From IMG/VR virus record IMGVR_UViG_3300022845_000018, positions 1-26,385 of that record: a stretch of DNA of 26,385 bases. The stretch is one strand, 5' to 3'. Source of the stretch: a virus. A program made the translations under genes and the position numbers. Under the pieces are notes generated by a model, which was given only the letters and a program-made list of their open reading frames with translations, searched no databases and was not told the origin of the DNA. This document shows, one piece after another, positions 2,087 through 26,086 of this stretch; position 1 is the first letter of the stretch; every line of letters starts with the position of its first letter.

Positions 2087-3192
2087 TCCATCTCCACGAT
2101 CTCGCCGAACGGCGCGCTTGTTGCTCCGGTCGTCACCCACAGCACAGGGCAGTCAGGTGCGTCACCGAAGTCATGACAGTACAGGTCGGTGAGGAACACG
2201 ATACCAGCGGGGTCAATACCCTGCTCCTCGATGTGCTTGAACACAGGGCTGAACGCTGTACCACCACCGCCACGTGGGTTGAACTCGAAGTCACCGTCAC
2301 GCTCGATGGTGTCATAAGCACAGACCTCGTGGCTAAAGAAGATGAAGTGTATCTTGGACGGCTTGCCGTCCTCGAATACCTGCCGACACTCCGCTGCGTA
2401 CTGGTTCTTCTCGGCATCGCTGATCGAGCCAGACATATCCACGGCGAACACCAACTCACCTAGCACCTCGCCACTGGTTGAGGGCATGTACAGTCCTTGG
2501 CTCAGGAACCTGCGGTTGGGTCTGGCGAAGGTACGCTGGTCGTTCTTGGCCTTCTGCACGAACCGTTGCAGCACGTCGCGCCAGTCCACCTTGGGCTTGA
2601 GTACCTCGTCGACGAGTCGGGCCATGTTGGCGCTCAGTTTATCTATCATCTTGGCAGCCTGCGCCGCTTGGGCCACCTTGATCTTCCACTCGGCAGCCTC
2701 TTGAGCCTGCTCAGCTTGGCCACCCTCGCCGTCCTCAAGGTCGTTACCAGTACCGCCGATACCGTCGCTGTCACCGTCACCATCGGTGTCTGGCAACAGG
2801 CTGTAGATACCATCGCTCGTACCACCGCCGTTGGTGTAGATGGTCTGGTCGAGACAGCCACCCTCGATGAACTTGCCGATGCCCTCGTCCACCAGTAGCT
2901 GGTTGATGACGTAGTCGGCGGCCTTGTTCCACTTCTTGGGGTCACGGGCACCACGTCGGTAGTTGTGCTCCAGCATGGGATGCAGACACTCATGGGCCAC
3001 AAGGAACTTGAGTTCCTCGTCAGTCAGCGGCTCGATGAAGTCGGGGTTGTACAGCACACGCTTGCCATTGGTGGCTGCCGTAGGCACCTCGTCGCTCAGT
3101 GACATGGGCATGTTGAGTGCCACGCTGCCAATGAAGGGGTGCTCTAGGATCAGGCTGGTCTTGGCCTTGCTCAGTCGTTCCATCGGGTCCAT
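2083..3192 (-). CDS. DUF2201-type metallopeptidase plus von Willebrand factor A protein, 369 aa
   Basis: The N-terminal half (1-100) resembles the putative metallopeptidase domain of DUF2201: zinc-binding HECLH at 67-71 and AADYVIN at 91-97, which supplies a likely third ligand (D93). An acidic, glycine-rich linker (~134-160) has DTDGDGDSDG, reminiscent of a calcium-binding loop. The C-terminal half is a VWA-like domain with the MIDAS motif DMSGS (252-256), a downstream GGGGT (T312) and TD at 335-336. VWA proteins of this kind work with MoxR/CobS AAA+ ATPases. Such an ATPase (5488-6483) and a DUF3150 protein (4379-5242) lie in the same leftward arm, so a remodelling or chelatase-like complex is a reasonable inference. 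The start overlaps the upstream stop (TGATG). The first 97 codons are duplicated exactly at 3609-3919. Confidence 0.87.
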   Translation of the reverse strand: MDPMERLSKAKTSLILEHPFIGSVALNMPMSLSDEVPTAATNGKRVLYNPDFIEPLTDEELKFLVAHECLHPMLEHNYRRGARDPKKWNKAADYVINQLLVDEGIGKFIEGGCLDQTIYTNGGGTSDGIYSLLPDTDGDGDSDGIGGTGNDLEDGEGGQAEQAQEAAEWKIKVAQAAQAAKMIDKLSANMARLVDEVLKPKVDWRDVLQRFVQKAKNDQRTFARPNRRFLSQGLYMPSTSGEVLGELVFAVDMSGSISDAEKNQYAAECRQVFEDGKPSKIHFIFFSHEVCAYDTIERDGDFEFNPRGGGGTAFSPVFKHIEEQGIDPAGIVFLTDLYCHDFGDAPDCPVLWVTTGATSAPFGEIVEME

Positions 3193-3210
3193 CAGTTTTT
3201 CTCCAGTTCT
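2900..3210. repeat. 311-bp exact direct repeat, copy 1
   Basis: Reading base by base I found no difference between this segment and 3609-3919 (offset 709). It covers codons 1-97 of the metallopeptidase/VWA gene, its start codon and about the last 20 nt of the gene upstream. This copy is in the intact gene. Confidence 0.93.
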
Positions 3211-3569: not shown

Positions 3570-3901
3570 TTCAGTCCTCCCATAAAGGCTGCCATCTTGG
3601 CAGCGATTTGGTTGATGACGTAGTCGGCGGCCTTGTTCCACTTCTTGGGGTCACGGGCACCACGTCGGTAGTTGTGCTCCAGCATGGGATGCAGACACTC
3701 ATGGGCCACAAGGAACTTGAGTTCCTCGTCAGTCAGCGGCTCGATGAAGTCGGGGTTGTACAGCACACGCTTGCCATTGGTGGCTGCCGTAGGCACCTCG
3801 TCGCTCAGTGACATGGGCATGTTGAGTGCCACGCTGCCAATGAAGGGGTGCTCTAGGATCAGGCTGGTCTTGGCCTTGCTCAGTCGTTCCATCGGGTCCA
3901 T
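3560..3901 (-). pseudogene. chimeric, truncated copy of the metallopeptidase/VWA gene, 113 aa
   Basis: Residues 1-97 are identical in DNA and protein to the N-terminus of the 369-aa protein, including HECLH (67-71) and D93. The frame then switches to IAAKMAAFMGGLKWR. That is a near copy of the C-terminus of the DUF3150 protein (IATKMAAFMGGLK at its end). The whole linker and VWA domain are missing. The open frame, the coupled start (TGATG at 3901) and the intact zinc motif leave open that a free metallopeptidase-domain protein is made. Its origin by segmental duplication joined to a neighbouring gene end is clear from the sequence. An assembly artefact should also be considered. Confidence 0.8.
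3567..3609. repeat. 43-bp imperfect direct repeat, copy 1
   Basis: This segment matches 4380-4422 with two mismatches (3574 and 3601; offset 813). It contains the last codons of the DUF3150 gene together with the ribosome binding site and GTG start of the gene that follows. It abuts the 311-bp repeat at 3609, so the two repeats meet at the chimera junction. Confidence 0.88.
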
Positions 3902-3919
3902 CAGTTTTTCTCCAGTTCT
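3609..3919. repeat. 311-bp exact direct repeat, copy 2
   Basis: This is identical to 2900-3210 as far as I can read. It begins at the chimera junction and ends inside the last codons of the 52-aa gene (shared ELEKN and TGATG). The absence of any mismatch over 311 bp means the duplication is recent, kept identical by recombination, or an assembly error. Confidence 0.93.
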
Positions 3920-5246: not shown

Positions 5247-5501
5247 TCAGTCCTTCTTTAAGGTTGGTGCGGCTCCGGTCAGTCGGAGATACGCTTGATA
5301 GGCCAGCACTTTGCGTGCGTATCTGCTGGCGACGAACTGGTCCCACGTGGTGGGCTCAGTGGTGAAGCCTATATTCATTGCGGCTTCTTTGCGGTACTTG
5401 ACCCACTCCTCGGCGAGGCCGTCGAGTTCCGCGTCAGCGATCTGTCCACTGGTACGCAACCAGTGGACAAACGTCGGCCTCTTGGGCTCAAAAGAGGACA
5501 T
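5247..5501 (-). CDS. small protein between the AAA+ ATPase and DUF3150 genes, 84 aa
   Basis: I chose the ATG at 5501 (MSSFEPKRPTFVHWL), which overlaps the ATPase gene by 14 nt. A longer upstream frame would run through that gene. The protein is mostly helical (IADAELDGLAEEWVKYRKEA; WDQFVASRYARKVLAYQAYL) with no cysteine or catalytic motif. Its conserved place inside the ATPase/DUF3150 gene pair suggests a role with that machine. I do not recognise the family. Confidence 0.72.
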   Translation of the reverse strand: MSSFEPKRPTFVHWLRTSGQIADAELDGLAEEWVKYRKEAAMNIGFTTEPTTWDQFVASRYARKVLAYQAYLRLTGAAPTLKKD

Positions 5502-6483
5502 CTTGGTGCGCCCATGCCCAGCGAGTAAAGGCCTGTGTGTTGGCCAGATCGGGTGTCTTGCGGACAGCATGGGAGATGCTAAGGACCGAGAACTCGGCAG
5601 GCATACGGCCGGTGTAGGTCACAACACGTTCCAAGTTGGCCTCGGTGGCACGGTCAGCCAAGGCACCGGACAAGGCGTAGAGTGTGGCCGGGTCAGTCGG
5701 TACCTCTGCCGTATCGGGGTTGATGAGAATAGCATCGGGGTTGGGCAGCTTACGGTAGATACGCACAAACCCAACAAACTCAGCTGCGGCACCCTCACCA
5801 ATGGCACCCTTGAAGCACTCGTACTCTGCCTCGGCTGGCACGTTGCCAAGCACTGCACTGACACCCTCGACCCATGACCGTGGTGTCGGGTTGACGTCAC
5901 GCTGTGGGTCGAAGTCATGCAGCAAGTGAGGCCGGAACCGTGTGAAGGCGATGACCATGGGGTGTACGGCGTTGTCGATCATCCACTGTGTGCTGTCGTC
6001 GAGGTGTGTCTCGAACTCAAGCACGGTCTCACGGTTACGCAAGTGGCTCAAAACACGGTTGGCACCAGCCCTGTCGGACTGCCTGTTACCCGTTGACACC
6101 ACCGTCCACCCATTGGCCAAGGGCTTGCCGTGTAGGGTCCGAGCCTGCTGGATGTTGGCCAGTACCTTCTGTAGGTCGGCGTTGGCTTGGTTCCGATCGT
6201 CGAACAGTAGGATACCACCGCGCTCGGTGCCGGCCTTGCCCTTGAATGGGAACCATTCGGGCAGCTTGTAGCTGAAGCTGTCGCCGGCAGCGTCGGGGTA
6301 GGGTATCCCAAAGTCCTCGACCAGCATGGTCGGCATGTGCCGCTCCACGACAGGTAACCCCATAGCCTCGGCCACCTCATGGACAATGGTGGTCTTACCA
6401 CCCCCCGGAGGCCCCTCGATAGCTACGGATCGACCGAGTGGAATCAGCGACTTGAGTGTGTCTTTGAGTAATTTAGCACGCAT
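5488..6483 (-). CDS. MoxR/CobS-type AAA+ ATPase, 331 aa
   Basis: The protein has Walker A GPPGGGKT at 24-31, Walker B ILLFDD at 91-96 and a sensor-1-like VVSTGNRQSDRAG with N133. An RNR stretch at ~149-151 may supply an arginine finger. The second acidic Walker B residue is Asp (D96) instead of the usual Glu, followed by RNQA where MoxR proteins usually have INRA. These ATPases form hexameric rings that remodel a substrate through a VWA partner. The DUF3150 and DUF2201/VWA genes downstream supply that context. The ATG at 6483 follows AGGAGCCGCAA. The mRNA leader carries a hammerhead ribozyme (6506-6563), so this gene is probably translated from a self-processed transcript. Confidence 0.9.
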   Translation of the reverse strand: MRAKLLKDTLKSLIPLGRSVAIEGPPGGGKTTIVHEVAEAMGLPVVERHMPTMLVEDFGIPYPDAAGDSFSYKLPEWFPFKGKAGTERGGILLFDDRNQANADLQKVLANIQQARTLHGKPLANGWTVVSTGNRQSDRAGANRVLSHLRNRETVLEFETHLDDSTQWMIDNAVHPMVIAFTRFRPHLLHDFDPQRDVNPTPRSWVEGVSAVLGNVPAEAEYECFKGAIGEGAAAEFVGFVRIYRKLPNPDAILINPDTAEVPTDPATLYALSGALADRATEANLERVVTYTGRMPAEFSVLSISHAVRKTPDLANTQAFTRWAWAHQDVLF

Positions 6484-6505
6484 TTGCGGCTCCTATTATA
6501 TGGCT

Positions 6506-6563
6506 TGTCTCATCAGTGACATGGGTGCCACCCATGCCAGACGCCCCGTAGGGCGTTTCGACA
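6506..6563 (-). ncRNA. type II hammerhead ribozyme, upstream of the AAA+ gene (HHR-B)
   Basis: Read on the minus strand: stem II strand UGUC (6563-6560); GAAA (6559-6556); stem III CGCCC (6555-6551), UACG loop, GGGCG (6546-6542); U16.1 (6541) pairing A15.1; C17 (6540); stem I of ten pairs with one G-U (6539-6530 with 6526-6517) closed by GGC; CUGAUGA (6516-6510); stem II strand GACA (6509-6506). Every invariant core base of the hammerhead is present. Stem II is the open helix, which makes it type II. The C(UACG)G loop is an exceptionally stable tetraloop. Predicted cleavage is between 6540 and 6539, leaving the AAA+ mRNA with a 5' stem-loop. Confidence 0.9.
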
Positions 6564-6567
6564 TATG

Positions 6568-7368
6568 TCAGTGGTCCTTGATCTGGTTCAAGGCGTTGGT
6601 CATATTGGTGTAGCTGTCGAAATACTCATACATCTTGCTGTCGTAGCACATCTCGTACTTGTAGACAGCTTCACGGAGGCTACGCAGCTCCTGCTCCAAC
6701 GGCACACGGTTAGAGAAGCGGGCAGCGATCTCAGCCCAACCAGTCTCACCTTGCTTGAGGTAGGCCATAGCCTCTCGTGGTGTCCATGAGAACGCACCGC
6801 CCCAACGGGGGGCAAGTGGACACAAGTTGAGACGAATACGTGTCTCCAACCATAGCTTGAACGTGTAGTAGTTGCTGTCCTTGAGGGCCTGCTTGCCCTC
6901 TTTACGGTTGAGACACGGCACCTCGATGGGCTTGTTACCATCGACGAGTTCCCAACCAGTCTCCTTGGGCTGGACCACGGCGAAGGACGGGGTTTTGTAG
7001 TACCGACCACCCACTTCGGTGATGAGGCCCTTGTCTGACCAGTGGGTATTCACATAGGGCCCGAGGACTAACCACATGACGCGGTTGGTCAGGATAGAGG
7101 GGTAAGGGTCGAGGACAATAGGGGACAGGTCGTTGTCACCAGCAGCTTGGTAGGTGTAGCGGATAATATCCGTGGAGTAGAGCCGGACCAGTATGTCACT
7201 GGTCGTTGGCTCCATCCGGATGGTCAGGTTGTCGCTACCACGGTTGGTCAGTGGCCTTGTGTTCTGGTCTGACCGACCACGGATAGGCTTGATGGAGTTG
7301 TACTTGAGCAGTGCTGTGTTGTAGGACAGCATATGGTGGGATGGTAACTCGATGTTTCTTCCGAACAT
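6568..7368 (-). CDS. phage protein of unknown function, 266 aa, flanked by ribozymes
   Basis: I start it at the ATG at 7368 (MFGRNIELPSHH), which has a perfect AAGGAGATCAACT site. An in-frame ATG at 7455 would translate through the hammerhead structure and is unlikely. The protein is soluble-looking, with a basic middle region (RYYKTPSFAVVQPKETGWELVD), an aromatic stretch (APRWGGAFSWTPREAMAYL) and a C-terminal acidic, tyrosine-rich helix (YKYEMCYDSKMYEYFDSYTN). I recognise no domain. A predicted self-cleaving ribozyme lies immediately before and after the gene, so its message may be released as a separate RNA, which sets it apart from its neighbours. Confidence 0.8.
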   Translation of the reverse strand: MFGRNIELPSHHMLSYNTALLKYNSIKPIRGRSDQNTRPLTNRGSDNLTIRMEPTTSDILVRLYSTDIIRYTYQAAGDNDLSPIVLDPYPSILTNRVMWLVLGPYVNTHWSDKGLITEVGGRYYKTPSFAVVQPKETGWELVDGNKPIEVPCLNRKEGKQALKDSNYYTFKLWLETRIRLNLCPLAPRWGGAFSWTPREAMAYLKQGETGWAEIAARFSNRVPLEQELRSLREAVYKYEMCYDSKMYEYFDSYTNMTNALNQIKDH

Positions 7369-7388
7369 TAGTTGATCTCCTTGGGCTT

Positions 7389-7450
7389 GTCTCGTCAGTG
7401 CCGTGGTAGCCAACCACGGCAGACAGACCACCTTGGTGGTCTGTTTCGAC
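7389..7450 (-). ncRNA. type II hammerhead ribozyme, upstream of the 266-aa gene (HHR-A)
   Basis: Read on the minus strand: stem II strand GUC (7450-7448); GAAA (7447-7444); stem III CAGACCACC (7443-7435) with GGUGGUCUG (7432-7424), two-base AA turn as drawn; U16.1 (7423); C17 (7422); stem I UGCCGUGGU (7421-7413), loop UGGCU, ACCACGGCA (7407-7399), nine perfect pairs; CUGACGA (7398-7392); stem II strand GAC (7391-7389). All invariant core bases are present. Predicted cleavage is between 7422 and 7421. The stem III and stem I sequences differ fully from HHR-B but pair equally well. Stem II is only 3 bp. The 5' edge lies just after the stop codon of the 50-aa gene. Confidence 0.9.
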
Positions 7451-7451
7451 T

Positions 7452-7604
7452 TCATGGAACTAAGATTGCAGCGTAGGTAGCACCGAACCTATCGGCGACG
7501 TGCTTCCGTAGAAGCGCCTTGTCTACAGGCTGACCAAGCTGTTCACACTTGGTGCGGTACTGGTTGGTGTAGACCGCGGCGAGGTCCAGTATAATCTCGT
7601 TCAT
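7452..7604 (-). CDS. small protein, 50 aa
   Basis: The frame MNEIILDLAAVYTNQYRTKC to FGATYAAILVP begins at an ATG that overlaps the upstream TGA by one base (TGATG) behind AAGGAGATCAACT. It ends one base before the 5' strand of hammerhead HHR-A. It is largely helical with one cysteine and matches no family I know. The strong ribosome binding site is nearly identical to that of the 266-aa gene. Confidence 0.65.
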   Translation of the reverse strand: MNEIILDLAAVYTNQYRTKCEQLGQPVDKALLRKHVADRFGATYAAILVP

Positions 7605-7876
7605 CAGTTGATCTCCTTGGTGGGGTTGTTATCAAGCCAGCACTGTACTGTGTAGGCAGCGACAGCAAAGCGGACTACCATTACACCGGGCTTATGGTCA
7701 GGGAAGAAACCAGCGGCTTCCCAGCCAGCAGTACCCATGGAAGTACTACCATCCCACATATTAGCGTTGACCATGGCCCTGATATGGGCAGCACTGGACT
7801 TACCGGGGTTGATAATACGCAGCACGTCGGCGGTTGCCTCAAGGCTGTGCTCGTCGGTCTCGATTGTATAGTTCAT
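7604..7876 (-). CDS. small protein of unknown function, 90 aa
   Basis: The sequence MNYTIETDEHSLEATADVLR to AYTVQCWLDNNPTKEIN has a mixed alpha/beta look. A GKSSAAHIRAMVNANMWDG stretch is followed by a hydrophobic segment (GVMVVRFAVAAYTVQCWL) too interrupted to be a sure membrane helix. AAGGATGACTACGCT precedes the ATG at 7876. It sits between the promoter-proximal 108-aa gene and the 50-aa gene in one operon. No family recognised. Confidence 0.68.
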   Translation of the reverse strand: MNYTIETDEHSLEATADVLRIINPGKSSAAHIRAMVNANMWDGSTSMGTAGWEAAGFFPDHKPGVMVVRFAVAAYTVQCWLDNNPTKEIN

Positions 7877-7889
7877 AGCGTAGTCATCC

Positions 7890-8216
7890 TTACTTTACGA
7901 GGGAAAGCATCAGCGGTGCTGACACGTTGTTGTAGTGAATCTGTACATGAGTGTAACCATACTCAACGAGGTGACGACGTTCGTCTACTGCCACTACCTG
8001 TCCACAGTAGGGGCTTGCCTCGGAAGTAATCACAAACTCACGACCAGCAGCCCAGTCATAACCAGCGTCAGACTGGTGTAGATAGGTACGACGACGAGGA
8101 CGGATGGTAAGTATACGCTGGGAAGTGTGTTCACTTAGGTCGGCGAGGTTGACCCAAGTCACTGGCGCAGTGTCAACTTCACTGTCACCGTCGTCCATGA
8201 AGATATTATTAAACAT
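7890..8216 (-). CDS. first gene of a leftward operon, 108 aa, unknown function
   Basis: I start it at the ATG at 8216 (MFNNIFMDDGDSEVD) with AGGAGCTAACTACT upstream. A longer frame from 8282 would begin at the promoter itself. The C-terminal two thirds look beta-rich (QRILTIRPRRRTYLHQ; REFVITSEASPYCGQVVAVD; YTHVQIHYNN), suggesting a small barrel-like domain. A TTGACA-N17-TAGTTT promoter lies about 65 nt upstream. Function is unknown. Confidence 0.7.
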   Translation of the reverse strand: MFNNIFMDDGDSEVDTAPVTWVNLADLSEHTSQRILTIRPRRRTYLHQSDAGYDWAAGREFVITSEASPYCGQVVAVDERRHLVEYGYTHVQIHYNNVSAPLMLSLVK

Positions 8217-8280
8217 AGTAGTTAGCTCCTGTAAAAGAGAGATTTTATACCACCGAGCCGGGTTGGGCTTGGCGATTTTC

Positions 8281-8309
8281 AAACTAGCACGTCAGCCGAG
8301 CCGTGTCAA
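8281..8309 (-). promoter_or_regulatory. sigma70-type promoter for the 108/90/50/266-aa operon
   Basis: TTGACA (8309-8304) and TAGTTT (8286-8281) lie 17 nt apart on the minus strand. The -35 is consensus and the -10 keeps TA...T. The expected start near 8275 leaves a leader of about 58 nt with an AGGAG site before the ATG at 8216. Confidence 0.55.
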
Positions 8310-8376
8310 GTTCGGGGTTAAGCCCTTGATTTTGTTGAGTTTTTTCGTAAGTGTGTGCCAAGTATGTACCAAGAAG

Positions 8377-8830
8377 CTATCTACTTGTAAGTACTTGAAA
8401 TCATTCAATGTAGATAGATGGCGGACGCGCAAGTGCTTGATATTGCAGGAACTATATACTTATCTATCTATCTACTCGAAACTAAACGCGCTATGTTAGA
8501 AAGTGGGGGCGTGACTCGTTTACTCGAAATAGGGTTTTGCACGATAGAACAGTATAAAAAACGTAGATAGATAGATATATTATATAGATACTTTATATAT
8601 ACACACTACTACCCCTTGGTATACCCTTGGTTTTACAGGCTTTTTTCCAAGTATACGTGTATACTAAGCTCCAATACGTTACACAAGCTGTATCGTATCA
8701 AGACAAACTATACAGCAAAAAGTAGATAGATGCGTGTACTGTTTGGCTAACATACTGATAACACACAATATAAAGTAGATAGTTTTTTAGTATACGTGTA
8801 TAGTGTAAGTATACACTACTAAAGTAGACA
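8377..8830. repeat. family of GTAGATAG elements
   Basis: Copies in the plus sense start at 8410, 8563, 8722, 8775 and 8824 (the last is degenerate, GTAGACA). Copies in the minus sense lie at 8377-8384 and 8461-8475. The elements at 8461-8475 and 8563-8577 are perfect 15-bp inverted repeats of each other (TATCTATCTATCTAC and GTAGATAGATAGATA). The last three plus-sense copies are each preceded by AAA and spaced about 50 bp apart (53 and 49). Confidence 0.75.
8650..8665. promoter_or_regulatory. palindromic GTATAC operator-like site
   Basis: AGTATACGTGTATACT has perfect 7-bp arms around GT. A near copy, AGTATACGTGTATAGT, occurs at 8789-8804 and is followed by a second inverted repeat, TAGTGTA-AGTA-TACACTA (8801-8818). 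Such symmetry fits a dimeric DNA-binding protein. The site also contains GTGTATACT, the word repeated upstream of the terminase genes. Confidence 0.5.
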
Positions 8831-9005
8831 AATACCCCCCGACTAATGCTGTCAAGTATGCGCGCACCCTAAATCCCCCCGACGTATGCCGAGAGAAACG
8901 AGGTGGTTGTTCACGGGCTGCGAGGTACCGCTTGGCTTCCAACTGACCGATGCGGCTAACATAGCCGTCGTACTGCCGCAGTTTCTTATCAATGCGTGGT
9001 GCCAT
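8787..9005 (-). CDS. small basic protein, 72 aa
   Basis: The ATG at 9005 (MAPRIDKKLRQYDGYVSRIG) follows AGGAGAAAAATACT, a leader shared almost exactly with the preceding gene. The first 50 residues are basic and protein-like. The last 15 (GGYLSTLVVYTYTIHVY) read through the GTATAC palindrome region, which is odd for a protein end. It shares the short LEAKR word with the 82-aa protein just upstream. Function is unknown, and a DNA-binding role would only be a guess from the charge. Confidence 0.55.
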   Translation of the reverse strand: MAPRIDKKLRQYDGYVSRIGQLEAKRYLAAREQPPRFSRHTSGGFRVRAYLTALVGGYLSTLVVYTYTIHVY

Positions 9006-9028
9006 AGTATTTTTCTCCTGATTAAAGG

Positions 9029-9052
9029 CGGCCAGCCCTTGCAGGCTGGCCG
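9029..9052 (-). other. hairpin in the leader of the 72-aa gene
   Basis: CGGCCAGCC and GGCTGGCCG form a 9-bp stem around a 6-nt loop, followed on the minus strand by CCTTTAATCAGGAGAAAAATACT and the ATG. There is no uridine run, so a simple terminator is unlikely. A second copy of the cassette precedes the 82-aa gene. RNase III processing or mRNA stabilisation are possible roles. Confidence 0.7.
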
Positions 9053-9058
9053 TTAGTT

Positions 9059-9307
9059 TCATAGTACCCAGATTATCCGGGCATGGCAGTAAGCGAGCCG
9101 CTTGGCTTCCAAGCCTTCCAAGCCTCGACTTTTTTGCTTCCAAGCCTTGGGTTTTTTGCTTATACGGGGTTTTTTCCGAGCCGGACCGTACCAGCTTTCC
9201 GGTATACGTGCCATGATTTCGGCTATTTCTTCATGGTCGAATGCGCCCGCGCGCCAAGAGTTCTTTACCGCCAAGTTCTCTTGGCGCGCCAGTCTTTGCA
9301 TAGTCAT
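9059..9307 (-). CDS. small basic protein, 82 aa
   Basis: The ATG at 9307 has an AGGAGAAAAATACT leader. The N-terminal part (MTMQRLARQENLAVKNSWRA, then FDHEEIAEIMARIPESW) is a plausible small helical domain. The middle is very basic (ARKKPRISKKPKAWKQKSRGL), which suggests nucleic-acid binding. The end (LEGLEAKRLAYCHARIIWVL) repeats the LEAKR word of the next gene. It is the second gene behind the strong leftward promoter at 9790-9818, so it is probably early. No family recognised. Confidence 0.58.
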   Translation of the reverse strand: MTMQRLARQENLAVKNSWRAGAFDHEEIAEIMARIPESWYGPARKKPRISKKPKAWKQKSRGLEGLEAKRLAYCHARIIWVL

Positions 9308-9332
9308 AGTATTTTTCTCCTAGGTTAAAGGT

Positions 9333-9354
9333 GGCCAGCCCTTGAGGGCTGGCC
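9333..9354 (-). other. hairpin in the leader of the 82-aa gene
   Basis: GGCCAGCCC and GGGCTGGCC pair over 9 bp around a TTGA/TCAA loop. On the minus strand it is followed by ACCTTTAACCTAGGAG and the shared AAAAATACT-ATG. It is the sister of the hairpin at 9029-9052. Seven nucleotides separate it from the stop codon of the 95-aa gene. Confidence 0.72.
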
Positions 9355-9361
9355 ATTGTGA

Positions 9362-9649
9362 TTAGAGCTTAAAGACAGGCTTAGTACTTGCCTTAGTCAC
9401 GCGTGACTCTCGCTCTGGAACCTTGGCAACCTTGAGCGTGCCAAAGCGGTATCCAAAGGCAAGAGTGAAGCCTTCGTCAAGGGATCCTTTTTTGCGGGCG
9501 GCAGCAACGAATTGCGTTTCAAAAGACGCTTTGATGTCTTTGTAAGCTTTTTCAGCAAGCCGCACGGCATCAAGCCGCTTGGCGAGTGCTGCATTGGCTT
9601 CTAAAGAAACTAGAACCCAAGTCAATTCGGATGCATCACGTTTAGTCAT
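9362..9649 (-). CDS. first leftward gene after the main control region, 95 aa
   Basis: The ATG at 9649 (MTKRDASELTWVLVSLEANA) follows AAAGGGAACGACT, a moderate ribosome binding site. An upstream in-frame ATG at 9733 has no such site. The protein has a long amphipathic helix (~15-55, LEANAALAKRLDAVRLAEKA and on) and a basic, beta-like C-terminus (FTLAFGYRFGTLKVAKVPER) ending in TKASTKPVFKL. It is transcribed from the strong promoter at 9790-9818 through a leader of about 130 nt, which marks it as an early gene. Function is unknown. Confidence 0.7.
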   Translation of the reverse strand: MTKRDASELTWVLVSLEANAALAKRLDAVRLAEKAYKDIKASFETQFVAAARKKGSLDEGFTLAFGYRFGTLKVAKVPERESRVTKASTKPVFKL

Positions 9650-9789
9650 AGTCGTTCCCTTTCGAGGATTAAGATTGAAAGAGCATGACCCCATTATCGG
9701 GATCACGTCCCTAGGTGTGTTCAACGATGTCAAAAAGCGTGGGTTTGTGGCCCTTACCGATCGGACGTCGCCGCCGTTTCGATGAATTA

Positions 9790-9818
9790 TTTATAGCAAA
9801 CTATACACGCACTGTCAA
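9790..9818 (-). promoter_or_regulatory. strong leftward sigma70-type promoter
   Basis: TTGACA (9818-9813) and TATAAA (9795-9790) are separated by exactly 17 nt on the minus strand, with a GTGTATAG word in the spacer. This is the best promoter in the window and needs no phage factor. It should drive the leftward genes from 9649 on, with a start near 9783. Confidence 0.82.
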
Positions 9819-9854
9819 ATTCACTTTGTTTTATGGCGTTTTATAGGGGTGCAT

Positions 9855-10017
9855 GTATACTTGCGCGGCGCGCCGTATAGGGCAGGGGCAGGGGCAGGGG
9901 GGCCACATGGACAGGGAAATTTTTACCCCCCCGGTAGTGTAGTAAACCTCGCAAAGCACAGGCCAAAAAAAGGAACGTGTATACTTTCGAGCCTCCCAGA
10001 AACCAAACTGTATACTT
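9855..10017 (+). promoter_or_regulatory. three tandem GTATACTT motifs upstream of the terminase genes
   Basis: GTATACTT occurs at 9855-9862, 9979-9986 and 10010-10017, each preceded by a short A/C/G word (GCAT, ACGT, AACT). The spacings are 124 and 31 bp. TATACT resembles a -10 box, but no -35 lies at the right distance. Related words occur before the portal gene (ACGTGTATATT at 12400) and in the low-GC block. A phage regulator site or extended -10 promoter is possible. Confidence 0.45.
9880..9902 (+). other. G-quadruplex motif in the divergent control region
   Basis: Four runs of 3, 4, 4 and 6 guanines are separated by the dinucleotide CA each time. This satisfies the usual G3+N1-7 rule with very short loops, the most stable kind. 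It lies between the leftward promoter and the rightward structural genes. Confidence 0.7.
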
Positions 10018-10028
10018 TGCATACCCCC

Positions 10029-10058
10029 TTGTCAGACCCCACCACCCCGCGCTATCTT
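10029..10058 (+). promoter_or_regulatory. candidate promoter giving a leaderless terminase mRNA
   Basis: TTGTCA (10029-10034) and TATCTT (10053-10058) are 18 nt apart. The start point expected 7 nt after the -10 falls on the A of the ATG at 10065. There is no Shine-Dalgarno sequence before that ATG, which agrees with a leaderless transcript. Confidence 0.42.
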
Positions 10059-10064
10059 AGCGCC

Positions 10065-10544
10065 ATGGACACATACCCGCTGCATCACACCAAATGGTCG
10101 GACCGTCTGACGTTCGACATCGCCCTTGCCCTAGAGGGCAGCGGGGAGGACTTGGATGAGATCAAGGACCGGCACGGCGTAACCGCCTCGGACCTGCTGG
10201 TGTTCAACAAGGACCCGGTGTTTCTCAAGCGCGTGGAATCCTACCGCGAGGACATCCGAGAGAAGGGCATGACCTTCAAGCTCAAGGCTCGGGCGCAGGC
10301 TGAGGAGCTCCTCACAACGTCTTGGGGGCTGATCCACAGCCCGAATGTATCCCCAGCAGTCAAGGCTGACCTCATCAAGTCCACGGTCAAGTGGGCCGGG
10401 CTGGAAGCCAAGACCGAGGAGACCGCGGCTGGCGGCGGTGGTGTGAAGATCAACATCAACTTCGGGAACAATACACCGCCCATGACCCTGACAGCGGACG
10501 TGGAAGGGGAAGCCTATGAACTCGATTCAGACGATTTTCAGTAG
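10065..10544 (+). CDS. terS: terminase small subunit-like protein, 159 aa
   Basis: The protein (MDTYPLHHTKWSDRLTFDIA to ELDSDDFQ) has an N-terminal helix-turn-helix-like segment (~12-50, LALEGSGEDLDEIKDRHGVT and on), then a long helical region (YREDIREKGMTFKLKARAQA, then VKADLIKSTVKWAGLEAK). It ends in a flexible acidic tail. This architecture, and the place two short genes before the large terminase, fits a small terminase that recognises packaging sites. I chose the ATG at 10065. The frame stays open to 9849, but that part crosses the G-quadruplex and motif region and is not protein-like. The start has no ribosome binding site (see the promoter at 10029). Confidence 0.78.
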   Translation: MDTYPLHHTKWSDRLTFDIALALEGSGEDLDEIKDRHGVTASDLLVFNKDPVFLKRVESYREDIREKGMTFKLKARAQAEELLTTSWGLIHSPNVSPAVKADLIKSTVKWAGLEAKTEETAAGGGGVKININFGNNTPPMTLTADVEGEAYELDSDDFQ

Positions 10545-10737
10545 TACGTATGAGGGCGCCCCTGCAGCACGTTTGCAAACGCTTCAAGAACATGAAGACC
10601 TACGCCATGCGCTTGAGAGCGCGGGCCACTCGTACCGGACGAAGATCGTCCCCCCACGTGGCAGAACGCACCGCCGCCCAGAAGGCCGGCCGCGGGAGAC
10701 CGTGGTGATATTGGCGCGGGGGCACGGGCATGGATGA
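10516..10737 (+). CDS. small basic protein between terminase genes, 73 aa
   Basis: This ORF starts inside the end of terS with an AAGGGGA site and ends by overlapping the next start by 8 nt (ATGGATGA), as other genes here do. The middle is helical (ARLQTLQEHEDLRHALESAG) and the end basic (PPRGRTHRRPEGRPRETVVI). A competing 52-aa frame at 10550-10708 has no good ribosome binding site. Function is unknown. Confidence 0.58.
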   Translation: MNSIQTIFSSTYEGAPAARLQTLQEHEDLRHALESAGHSYRTKIVPPRGRTHRRPEGRPRETVVILARGHGHG

Positions 10738-10891
10738 GGGTGTAGGCGACTGGCATGTAATCCCCCTGAACGATCTGAAGGAGCACGAGTGCTCGGCAGA
10801 CTGCTGGTGTGGACCGACACTGGACGACGAGGCAGAGGAGTTGATCTATGTCCACCACTCACTCGATGGTCGTGAACGGGAGGTTAACTGA
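10730..10891 (+). CDS. conserved small phage protein with WHVIPLNDL...CWCGP motif, 53 aa
   Basis: The short sequence contains DWHVIPLNDLKEHE, then CSADCWCGPTLDDEAEE and a final YVHHSLDGRE. I recognise this pattern from many phages, where a protein of this size lies beside the terminase or replication genes. The cysteines (C-x4-C-x-C) and histidines suggest metal binding. The TGA overlaps the terL start by one base (TGATG), so translation is coupled. No function is established. Confidence 0.78.
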   Translation: MDEGVGDWHVIPLNDLKEHECSADCWCGPTLDDEAEELIYVHHSLDGREREVN

Positions 10892-12276
10892 TGGCGCTTG
10901 AGATTGACTACACCCCACCGCCCACAGGGCAAAAGTTCATGAAGTCCGACGCCAAGATGCGCACGCTCATAGGCCCTGTGGGCTCGGGCAAGTCGGTGAC
11001 ATGCAGCTTCGAGATCATCCGCAGGGCAGCAGCACAGCTGCCGGACGCCAACACAGGTAAGCGCAGGACACGGGCGGCTGTGGTCCGTGAGACGGCGCGG
11101 CAGCTGCAGGATACCACGATCAAGACGTTCCTCGACTGGTTCCCGCCGGGGGTGTGTGGGCGGTACATGCGCACCACCAAGACCTACTTCTTCGAGGTCG
11201 GTGACATCGAGTGTGAGATTATGTTCCGGGCGCTGGACGACGCGGACGACGTGGCCAACCTCAACTCGCTCGAACTTACCTTCGCGTGGTTCAACGAGTG
11301 CAGGGACATCCACCCCGAGATCGTGGACGCGATGTCCAAACGGATCGGGCGATTCCCGTCCAACAAGGACGGCGGGCCGACGTGGCATGGGATGTGGGGG
11401 GACACCAACCCGCCCACGATGGACACGTGGTGGTACTACCAGATGGAGAAAATTGACCCCAAGGACGGGGTCAGTACGAACGACAACGGCTGGGACGTGT
11501 TCAAGCAGCCCTCAGGGCGGAGCGTCTACGCCGAGAACATCGAGAACCTGCCGGATGGGTACTACGACACCCAAGGCCGCAGCGAGGAGTACATCCGGGT
11601 CTTCATCGACGGTGAGTACGGGCTGAGCAGCAACGGCAAGCCGGTCTACCAGTACTTCCGGCCGGACTACCACATGGCCGGCCAGACCTTGCGGCCGATC
11701 AGCAACGGCACCCGACCCATCGTGGTGGGGATGGACCTCGGGCTGACGCCAGCGGCAGTGATCGGGCAGCAGGACCCGCGGGGCCGGGCGCTCATCTTCG
11801 ACGAGCTGGTGAGCTTCGACATGGGGATTCAGCGTTTCGTGCGGACGATGCTCAAGCCACTGATCTACGAGCGGTTCCCGGGCGCGCCCATCCTGATCGT
11901 CGTCGACCCGGCGGGTACGCAGCGGGCGCAGACCGACGAGCGGACCGCGGTCGACATCATCAAGGCAGAAGGGCTGCGGGTCATCCCAGCCAAGACCAAC
12001 AAGGTCAGCGCGCGGATCAACTCCGTGGATGAGTTCCTCATGCGGCAGGTCGACGGTGACCCGGGGTTCCTGCTCGACCCAAGGTGCATGCGCCTCAAGG
12101 CTGCCATGATGGGCGGCTACCGGTTCGATAAGAACGGCGGGATTGACAAGAATAAACACAGCCACGTGGCCGAAGCGCTGCAGTACCTGATGCTACATAT
12201 TGCGTCCGCGGGAGAAGGGCAGCACATGATAGAGCGGCGGGAAGTAAAACCTGTTGCATCTGCAGGGTGGACATAG
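10891..12276 (+). CDS. terL: terminase large subunit, 461 aa
   Basis: This is the DNA packaging motor. The N-terminal ATPase has Walker A GPVGSGKS (28-35) and Walker B LTFAWFNE (129-136), whose last residue E136 is the catalytic glutamate. The C-terminal RNase H-like nuclease shows VVGMDLG with D282, ILIVVDPAG with D339 and the final HSHVAEALQYL (424-434), in which terminases of this kind usually carry a metal ligand. The length is normal for the family. It is the last gene before a strong terminator. The start is coupled to the 53-aa gene. Assignment rests on these motifs and on the portal, scaffold and capsid genes that follow in the classical order. Confidence 0.96.
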   Translation: MALEIDYTPPPTGQKFMKSDAKMRTLIGPVGSGKSVTCSFEIIRRAAAQLPDANTGKRRTRAAVVRETARQLQDTTIKTFLDWFPPGVCGRYMRTTKTYFFEVGDIECEIMFRALDDADDVANLNSLELTFAWFNECRDIHPEIVDAMSKRIGRFPSNKDGGPTWHGMWGDTNPPTMDTWWYYQMEKIDPKDGVSTNDNGWDVFKQPSGRSVYAENIENLPDGYYDTQGRSEEYIRVFIDGEYGLSSNGKPVYQYFRPDYHMAGQTLRPISNGTRPIVVGMDLGLTPAAVIGQQDPRGRALIFDELVSFDMGIQRFVRTMLKPLIYERFPGAPILIVVDPAGTQRAQTDERTAVDIIKAEGLRVIPAKTNKVSARINSVDEFLMRQVDGDPGFLLDPRCMRLKAAMMGGYRFDKNGGIDKNKHSHVAEALQYLMLHIASAGEGQHMIERREVKPVASAGWT

Positions 12277-23317: not shown

Positions 23318-23637
23318 ACACGATCAGTGCATCTGTATTCCAGCTGTCCTTCAGGGGCGACACGCTCGCCCGCTGGACCTCGTTCAACCCGGTCCTCGCG
23401 GACCGTGAGTTTGTGTTAGAGACAGACACTGGTCAGTTCAAAGTCGGCGACGGCACGACAGCGTATCTCAGCCTGCCATATGGCGGGATCGTTGGCCCGA
23501 CCGGCCCGCAGGGCACGTCGATCGTATTTAAGGGTTCTGTAGCAACCTTTGCCGATCTCCCGGCGACGGGGAACGAGGTGAACGATGCGTACCTCGTTGA
23601 AGCAGACGGCAACCTGTATATTTGGGATGGTGTGTAA
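23314..23637 (+). CDS. fibre protein with tropism-determinant-like N-terminal motif, 107 aa
   Basis: The stretch [20 protein letters not shown], then [20 protein letters not shown] matches a short domain common at the N-terminus of phage fibres and major tropism determinants ('R..t...w...nPvL...E...etdtg..KiGDG.t.w'). A GPTGPQG element follows, then a domain ending [15 protein letters not shown] that resembles small carbohydrate-facing modules. It may be an accessory fibre acting with the collagen-like protein next to it, with which it overlaps by one base (TAATG). Confidence 0.75.
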
Positions 23638-24773
23638 TGGCTTGGATCAATGCAGGTAGTGTAAGCGTCGGCCCCACTGGCCCGACAGGACCACAGGGCA
23701 CCCAAGGTATTGACGGTGCGGATGGTATCGCGGGGCCCACGGGGCCCACTGGTGCTGACGGACTCCCCGGTGGCCCGACCGGCCCTATTGGTGTCGCAGG
23801 CCCTACCGGCCCTACCGGCCCCGCTGGTGTTGACGGTTCCGAGGGCACGACTGGCCCTACCGGCCCACAAGGTGCTGACTCCACAATCGCCGGGCCTGTC
23901 GGCCCTACCGGTGCAGCGGGGCCCACAGGCGCTACAGGCGCGGACTCCACTGTAGTCGGCCCGACCGGTGACGTTGGACCGACTGGCCCTACTGGTGCTG
24001 ACTCAACGGTCGTCGGACCAACAGGTCCAAGCGGCGCAGGCCCGACCGGCCCAACAGGACCTACCGGTGCAGACTCCACTGTAGTCGGCCCGACCGGTGC
24101 TACCGGCGATACCGGCGATACTGGCCCTACAGGTGCGGACTCTACAGTCGCTGGCCCGACCGGCCCGACCGGTGCTACCGGCGATACTGGCCCTACAGGT
24201 GCGGACTCTACAGTCGCTGGCCCGACCGGCCCGACCGGTGCTACTGGCAATACTGGCCCCGCAGGCGCTGACTCTACAGTCGCTGGCCCTACTGGTCCAG
24301 CCGGTCTTGACGGTACCGAAGGTACCGTAGGTCCGACAGGTCCACAGGGTATCCAAGGTGATCCCGGTACGCTTGGGCCGATAGGACCGACAGGACCGCA
24401 GGGCGACACAGGCCCCACCGGGTCAGACGCAACGGTGCCCGATCCATTACTTCGGGTTAATTACCACGAGACCGTGGGGACAGTCACATCTGGAACTATT
24501 GATCTATCCACGGGCAACGTGTTCTCGGATGCACCTGCCGCCAATGTGACTTATGTGCTCAGCAATCCGCCTGCCACTGGCACTGCCTACGGCTTCACGT
24601 TGAAGGTGACGCCATCTGCGACCATCACAATAAATTGGCCTGCCTCGGTTGACTGGGCTGGCGGCACTGCACCTGATGCGCCCGCGAACGGCGAGACGGA
24701 CGTGTTTGTATTTTTCACAATTGATGGTGGGACGACTTACTACGGCTTCCAAGCTGGGGATGCAATGGCATGA
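23637..24773 (+). CDS. collagen-like fibre protein, 378 aa
   Basis: From residue ~12 to ~265 the protein is built of Gly-X-Y triplets, mostly GPT, GPQ and GAT, expected to form a trimeric collagen triple helix. The triplet register is broken again and again by the word GADSTV(V/A)GPTG, which puts seven residues between glycines. The C-terminal ~115 residues form a separate beta domain ([40 protein letters not shown]), probably the trimerisation or receptor-binding head. I start at the ATG at 23637, coupled to the gene before (TAATG). The ATG 15 nt upstream lies inside that gene. A 66-bp exact-looking DNA repeat (24121-24240) marks recent expansion. Confidence 0.87.
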
Positions 24774-26086
24774 GCGGTATTAGCACAAAGATGTTACAGG
24801 CTGCTGCTGACCGCGAGGTTGTTGGTTGGATCGCACTTCTAGGCGGAACAGGAACTGACGAAGGCAATGCCGTAGCCATAGACTCGGCTGACAACATCAT
24901 TGTGGTGGGCCGGACCTCCTCAGACGGCGGTGGCGACTTTGACCTCCTCATCGCTAAGTACAACTCTGCAGGAGCTCTGCAATGGGACCGGACTCTAGGC
25001 GGAACAGGGAATGACGAAGGCTTTGCCGTAGCCGTAGACTCGGCTGACAACATCATTGTGGTGGGCCAGACTTACTCAGACGGCGCTGGCTACAGGGACA
25101 TTCTCATTGCTAAGTACAACTCTGCAGGAGCTCTGCAATGGGACCGGACTCTAGGCGGAACAGGACAGGACCAAGGCTTTGCCGTAGCCATAGACTCAGC
25201 CAACAACATCATTGTGACGGGCCGGACCTCCTCAGACGGCGCTGGCAGCAGTGACGTTCTCATCGCTAAGTACAACTCTGCAGGAGCTCTGCAATGGGAC
25301 CGGACTCTAGGCGGAACAGCAAATGACTACGGCTACGGCGTAGCCATAGACTCGGCTGACAACATCATTGTGGTGGGCCGAGGCTACCGCGGTGGCAGCA
25401 ATGAAGTTCTCATCGCTAAGTACAACTCTGCAGGAGCTCTGCAATGGGACCGGACTCTACGCGGCGGAGCAAATGACTTCGGCAGAGCCGTAGCCATAGA
25501 CTCAGCCAACAACATCATTGTGGTGGGCTATACCGCCTCAGACGGCGCTGGCGGCGATGACTTTCTCATCGCTAAGTACAACTCTGCAGGAGCTCTGCAA
25601 TGGGACCGGACTCTAGGCGGAACAGGATCTGACTACGGCTATGCCGTAGCCGTAGACTCGGCTGACAACATCATTGTGGTGGGCCAGACCTCCTCAGACG
25701 GCGCTGGCGGCGTTGACTTTCTCATTGCTAAGTACAACTCTGCAGGAGCTCTGCAATGGGACCGGACTCTAGGCGGAACAGCACATGACGTCGGCTATGC
25801 CGTAGCCATAGACTCGGCTGACAACATCATTGTGACGGGCTGGACCGCCTCAGACGGCGCTGGCGGCAATGACGTTCTCATCGCTAAACTGCCGCCCGAT
25901 GGTTCTGGGACAGGGACATACGGCTCTTTTACTTATGAAGCTGCCGTACTTACTGATGCATACGCCGTTTTAACAGACGGACTGGCCGTACTCACCGATG
26001 CGCCCGCCGTTTTAACAGACGCTGTTGCTGTACTGACAGACGCACCTGCCGTCCTCACGGAAGAACGTATAGATATCACGCCATAA
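24770..26086 (+). CDS. seven-repeat beta-propeller (SBBP-type) protein, 438 aa
   Basis: After 23 leader residues come seven repeats of about 52 residues (~24-386), each reading [45 protein letters not shown]. This is the pattern of SBBP beta-propeller repeats, and seven copies would close one seven-bladed propeller. Repeat 4 is two residues shorter ([11 protein letters not shown]). The DNA repeats are nearly identical (156-bp period), unlike most natural propellers, so they were amplified or homogenised recently. The C-terminus has six heptads AVLTDxx ([20 protein letters not shown] and on), possibly an oligomerisation strand. It probably binds host surface ligands as part of the tail. It overlaps the collagen gene by 4 nt. 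Confidence 0.85.
24838..25890. repeat. seven 156-bp tandem DNA repeats inside the propeller gene
   Basis: The word GCTAAGTACAACTCTGCAGG recurs every 156 bp (for example 24953 and 25109), once per blade. The differences between units cluster in the loop codons (for example the TSSDGGG region) while the strand codons stay almost fixed. Repeat 4 is 150 bp. Confidence 0.9.

Follow-up and report, generated by a model that had tools for sequence, protein, structure and literature searches.

Paired type II hammerhead ribozymes around a single phage gene: candidates for processing a polycistronic mRNA

What might a self-cleaving ribozyme be doing between two genes of a phage? The question is raised by a window of 26,385 nucleotides, the whole stretch of DNA that was analysed (IMG/VR record IMGVR_UViG_3300022845_000018), in which a short gap between two minus-strand genes has the appearance of a hammerhead. 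Both the type II kind of hammerhead and its gene-flanking arrangement in phages are known already: pseudoknotted type II hammerheads flank prophage genes, where processing to single-gene mRNAs has been proposed, and a triple hammerhead array around ardA of A. tumefaciens is cleaved in E. coli (Perreault et al. 2011, PMC3088659). What hammerheads do in bacteria and phages has been called an open question in a review (PMC6155905). The original prediction for this locus placed a type II hammerhead in the gap and gave no biological role; the pseudoknot, the second ribozyme, the predicted excision of a single-gene mRNA and the stop-codon register described here go beyond it.

The plus strand of the window carries terminase, SU10-type portal and major head protein genes. 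Portal and terminase are closest to those of Rhizobium, Roseobacter, Pseudomonas and Pelagibacter phages at identities under 60%, which makes this an uncultured tailed phage. A collagen-like GPTG repeat gene (23622-24773), where the structural module ends, adjoins the gene of a repeat protein, which is encoded by about seven copies of a 156-nt unit (24838-25887). The genes around the ribozymes, all on the minus strand, are the following.

7452-7604, minus strand: 50-aa reading frame upstream of the first hammerhead (HHR-A), with its UGA stop at 7454-7452
7377-7382, minus strand: Shine-Dalgarno sequence AAGGAG of the 266-aa gene, read from the sequence, 8 nt before the ATG at 7368
6568-7368, minus strand: 266-aa gene (P0001) between HHR-A and the second hammerhead (HHR-B), a conserved phage family aligned in 22 rows
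5488-6483, minus strand: AAA+ ATPase gene downstream of HHR-B (phrog_1297, like N4 gp24)

The 266-aa protein has no Pfam family, no PHROG family and no relative among annotated phages; its confident structural model (pLDDT 89) finds no fold match in the PDB, and in BFVD it matches uncharacterised viral proteins only. Past the ATPase gene lie a DUF3150-like gene and then a VWA/DUF2201 gene. A 300-nt perfect direct repeat (2900-3199 and 3609-3908) creates another VWA/DUF2201 gene start, a truncated one joined to a copied 3' end of the DUF3150 gene; five relatives (L134, L137, L141, L147 and L004) hold a single copy of the repeat without the ~400 nt between, and in the window the repeat either arose by recent duplication or reflects an assembly error. 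Beyond HHR-A, on its upstream side, a strong GGCCAGCC...GGCTGGCC hairpin occurs in two copies (88%; 9022-9054 and 9325-9357) around a small reading frame (9059-9307), and the pair may perhaps be terminators or another repeat element.

The first ribozyme and its parts can be placed as follows.

7389-7450, minus strand: HHR-A, type II hammerhead ribozyme (RF02276, 44.5 bits; fold z = -4.9)
7421-7422, minus strand: predicted HHR-A cleavage site, after C17 at 7422, from the position in the aligned core
7408-7411, minus strand: GGCU in loop I of HHR-A, 5' half of the predicted pseudoknot (strict structural scan; class backed by the tail-swap test)
7384-7387, minus strand: AGCC in the 3' tail of HHR-A, the pseudoknot partner (strict structural scan; tail-swap test)

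Read along the minus strand from 7450 to 7389, the 5' half of HHR-A is GUC GAAA CAGACCAC-C(CAAG)G-GUGGUCUG U C, after which comes the cut point, and the 3' half is UGCCGUGGU(UGGCU)ACCACGGCA CUGACGA GAC. Stem II consists of 3 bp (GUC/GAC), stem III of 9 bp including A15.1-U16.1 and closed by the loop CAAG, and stem I of 9 bp closed by UGGCU; these are the lengths and coordinates that had been predicted, and both sequence and fold agree with them. The aligned core likewise contains every invariant base that had been claimed (CUGACGA, GAAA, U16.1 and C17), with C at N7, which the consensus permits. A search of the minus strand with the Rfam type II covariance model, proposed earlier as a check, places RF02276 (Hammerhead_II) at 7380-7451 with 44.5 bits (E = 3e-6) against a gathering score of 37. 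Given nothing but the sequence, RNA folding recovers the structure (-33.5 kcal/mol; z = -4.9 relative to dinucleotide shuffles), and fold and covariation agree that stems I and III are closed by loops and that stem II is the open helix, as foreseen, which is the type II layout. By position along the strand, C17 falls at 7422 and N1.1 at 7421, the very position at which cleavage had been predicted, and the RNA downstream of the cut would start with a 5'-OH at U7421. The tail motif AGCC directly follows stem II and ends 1 nt before the Shine-Dalgarno sequence; a pseudoknot between loop I and the 3' tail is found in the majority of type II hammerheads, not in all. The original prediction of a type II hammerhead at 7389-7450 is thus borne out by covariance model, core, helices, fold, covariation and pseudoknot alike. 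In every defining feature that a sequence can be tested for, HHR-A is a type II hammerhead ribozyme, and presumably a catalytic one.

HHR-A has a partner. When the whole window was compared with 4227 Rfam families at E <= 1, the sole matches were HHR-A and a second hammerhead, HHR-B, at the far end of the 266-aa gene.

6506-6563, minus strand: HHR-B, second type II hammerhead (RF02276, 38.6 bits; fold)
6539-6540, minus strand: predicted HHR-B cleavage, between 6540 and 6539, from the aligned core
6501-6504, minus strand: GCCA in the 3' tail of HHR-B, pairing with loop I UGGC at 6530-6527 (covariance-model match and strict scan)
6540-7421, minus strand: predicted 882-nt released RNA, computed from both predicted cuts

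The covariance-model match of HHR-B spans 6498-6563 and stands just above the gathering score of 37; its fold has z = -3.0. The two ribozymes share the same sense and lie one on either side of the gene, the arrangement of a hammerhead array. Since they bracket the 266-aa gene, cleavage at both would free an 882-nt single-gene mRNA, which would consist of the stem I hairpin of HHR-A at the 5' end, the 266-aa reading frame, and the stem III hairpin of HHR-B at the 3' end.

Has selection kept these structures as RNA? A structural scan under strict rules counted 215 hammerheads across 1.25 Mb of loci, most of which had been chosen for carrying one, and none once that DNA was shuffled or reversed, a difference that chance does not explain. 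In 34 related hammerheads of the lineage the core columns are invariant or nearly so, while the helices covary, most positions showing 3 to 6 pair types; in stems I and III the outer pairing is maintained through several pair types, and pair 4 of stem I is CG in 13, GC in 12, AU in 6, GU in 2 and UA in 1. A pattern constrained only at the core and at GUC/GAC gave at least 149 distinct viral matches. Among the matches listed, 139 of 149 form both hairpins at the exact positions, compared with 4 of 2,980 inner shuffles, and 122 of these 139 copies form a pseudoknot of at least 4 Watson-Crick bp with their own tail, compared with a mean of 25.5 and a maximum of 37 when tails were swapped among the same 139 copies. 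In the loci around the ATPase, gathered by the ATPase protein and not by ribozymes, the strict scan detected 52 hammerheads in the sense orientation near 67 ATPase relatives and 0 in the antisense, counts to be read as lower bounds. Ten IMG/VR loci with relatives of the 266-aa gene contain 14 RF02276 matches above the gathering score, all of them in the sense of that gene and placed before it, after it or on both sides. Covarying helices, pseudoknots with the copy's own tail and sense-only orientation among the relatives together support an RNA structure.

How might such a pair be used? We propose that a minus-strand operon transcript would run through the 90-aa, 50-aa, 266-aa and ATPase genes, that each hammerhead would fold when transcribed, its stems locked by the loop I-tail pseudoknot, and that the RNA would be cut after C17. 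The upstream product would be an mRNA that runs some 30 nt past the stop codon and ends in a stem III hairpin bearing a 2',3'-cyclic phosphate, and the downstream product an mRNA with a 5'-OH, a stem I hairpin and then the Shine-Dalgarno sequence. Two cuts would leave the 266-aa gene on a monocistronic mRNA of 882 nt, closed by hairpins at both ends, and the gene's stability and translation could thereby be uncoupled from those of its neighbours. Ends of this kind, 5'-OH with a hairpin and hairpin with a cyclic phosphate, would presumably resist 5'-monophosphate-dependent and 3'-to-5' decay. A direct translational switch, in which cleavage frees the Shine-Dalgarno sequence, was rejected: thermodynamic folding gives nearly equal access before and after the predicted cleavage and so leaves such a switch unsupported. 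We put the probability at roughly 80% that HHR-A is a genuine type II hammerhead and one of a pair that would process a polycistronic phage mRNA. Sequence and comparison supply the structure, the sense orientation, the pairing around the gene, the placement between stop codon and Shine-Dalgarno sequence, and the recurrence; what we infer is that the RNA is cut in the cell, which ends the mRNAs have, and how expression is affected.

The placement of the ribozymes relative to the upstream stop codon bears on the first alternative. The UGA of the 50-aa frame ends 1 nt before HHR-A, and that of the 266-aa gene 5 nt before the GUC of HHR-B. Neighbour statistics from a greedy ORF caller are noisy in GC-rich DNA, and a register test was used instead, covering reading frames of at least 60 codons and those viral hammerheads whose flanks were long enough; shifted positions, antisense frames and matches without stems served as controls. 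Among the viral matches listed (L013-L132), the upstream stop ends -6 to +1 nt from the ribozyme in 105 of 133 cases; the same holds for 24 of 41 hammerheads in an independent sample from cellular genomes (loci from L199 on), compared with 5 of 75 genomic pattern matches without stems, a built-in control. Antisense frames and shifted positions give registers near background. The commonest register by far is +1, in which stem II opens with the G of UAG (44 viral cases among the matches listed); of 107 abutting stops, 53 (50%) are UAG, as against 23% among the long frames of those loci (p = 1e-8). Downstream, the ribozyme and the Shine-Dalgarno sequence are spaced more loosely (median 12 nt).

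Ribosome gating, mRNA-end protection and compactness may each be the cause of this register. A tentative reading, to which we give rather low odds, is that phage type II hammerheads are coupled to translation, the terminating ribosome masking the 5' strand and gating the cut, or else that the register is selected to keep the stretch from stop codon to hairpin, the free 3' tail of the cut mRNA, close to nil. In the sharper form of the idea the ribozyme would sense translation of the upstream gene and cut only when the stop codon is empty: as the ribozyme starts at the stop, a terminating ribosome would cover GUCGAAA and so block or delay folding. The closeness of stop and ribozyme, its restriction to the sense strand and the preference for UAG all speak for gating; against it, the same packing could arise in compact phage genomes without any gating, and the 5-nt distance at HHR-B implies that the 1-nt overlap is not essential. 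Compact packing fits the closeness equally well and the excess of exact UAG/G overlaps less well, an excess that could also stem from a shared origin of the copies. On balance we regard strict ribosome gating as slightly less probable still than the broader reading. Stop codons and ribosomes are nowhere mentioned in the main text of the 2011 study (Perreault et al. 2011, PMC3088659), and the register was not found in the accessible literature, in which few subscription journals are included and from which priority is not established.

A second alternative takes the ribozymes for selfish or neutral cassettes that spread between phage genes, with cleavage tolerated and of no use to the phage. 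In 19 of the 44 rows of the ATPase tree a hammerhead precedes the ATPase by no more than some 330 nt; it is missing there from the other 25, and the tree calls for at least 5 gains or losses. This patchiness also counts against the processing reading, for it follows that the phage lineage can dispense with the ribozyme. Similar hammerheads are found at differing sites among relatives. In the window the block of 50-aa gene and HHR-A (7380-7640) is flanked by copies of AAGGAGATCAACT(A/G)ATG; in L001 the block is absent and the flanking copies are merged into one, as if it had been lost or gained via recombination between two ribosome-binding sites. All this would suit a cassette. The strict conservation of core, helices and pseudoknot argues against one, as do the strictly sense orientation and the placement exactly between stop codon and Shine-Dalgarno sequence, and we consider useless cassettes improbable.

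Other features of the distribution concern how far the association reaches. The hammerhead upstream of the ATPase is still present beside an ATPase of 52% identity, there with another pseudoknot (UUAUC/GAUAG), and genes are bracketed on both sides in several phages (L136, L180 and L186). Relatives of the 266-aa gene in L037, L128, L053, L083 and L022 were retrieved by the hammerhead pattern alone, which indicates that the link between this family and the ribozyme extends past close relatives. The strict scan overlooks copies in which a stem has a mismatch (L178) or a core-adjacent pair is altered (L179), and its counts are therefore lower bounds; ten ATPase loci, mostly hammerhead-free by that scan, yielded a single RF02276 match (L191) and nothing else when searched for other Rfam ribozymes. 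In L032, eight type II hammerheads stand within about 3.2 kb (8125-11317), one at each junction between consecutive genes; these genes include one for anti-restriction and one for a RusA-like resolvase, and each hammerhead copy has its own pseudoknot sequence.

The bracketing of single genes by hammerhead pairs in the same orientation also admits a third product, a circular mRNA formed if the host ligase RtcB joined the ends of the 882-nt RNA. RtcB takes 5'-OH and 2',3'-cyclic-phosphate ends as its substrates. We hold this outcome to be very improbable, given that spliced or circular products were sought and none found in earlier work (Perreault et al. 2011, PMC3088659) and that hammerhead spacing in the loci with ATPase relatives is highly variable. 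That the region is simply coding, the 266-aa frame being open over 6568-7455 through HHR-A to an ATG at 7455 (a 295-aa protein) with an ATGA overlap with the 50-aa gene, is scarcely credible and was rejected, because the frame is not conserved: L005 and L010 read the hammerhead in other frames as unrelated peptides and keep the RNA structure, L001 and L009 have in-frame stops in place of the extension, and a good Shine-Dalgarno sequence stands 8 nt before the ATG at 7368. Two further candidates were discarded. A promoter at HHR-B would rest on one sigma-70-like match (6522-6495) in a region with 5 found against 3.8 expected, and its TATAAT is not kept in L002; as for terminators, neither HHR-A nor HHR-B is among the terminator-like sites listed.

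The proposed processing by the HHR-A and HHR-B pair has precedents. With the published RF02276 examples the locus shares the core, the short open stem II, the hairpin-closed stems I and III and the loop I-tail pseudoknot, as well as the intergenic phage or prophage context and the multiple copies flanking single genes; it differs from them in the phage lineage and in the bracketed gene, an unannotated 266-aa family, both of which are new (PMC3088659). The arrays of Agrobacterium tumefaciens (ardA), Clostridium scindens and Azorhizobium are likewise tandem and in the same sense, cutting a polycistron into gene-sized pieces, and the ardA array, like L032, holds an anti-restriction gene between hammerheads (PMC3088659); those arrays belong to cellular genomes, whereas here they occur in uncultured tailed phages, with up to 8 copies per locus (L032). 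In haloviruses HF1 and HF2 a hammerhead (the HHphage variant) similarly lies a few nt upstream of a phage gene, that of a helicase (PMC3088659), but it is a structural variant and the window copy is canonical. Retrozymes, too, place two hammerheads of the same sense around several hundred nt (PMC4918200), but theirs are of type I or III and belong to eukaryotic retroelements, whereas here type II ribozymes enclose a conserved coding gene in a phage genome, and no retroelement features were seen.

What lifts the locus above a routine occurrence is the paired bracket, the comparison of close relatives with and without the ribozyme, and the stop-codon register. Together with its relatives it amounts to a clean natural experiment, in which close phages have or lack a ribozyme at the same junction, and to which the arrays with one ribozyme between successive genes add further cases. 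The register, if it holds up, would provide a concrete and testable tie between the termination of translation and ribozyme cleavage.
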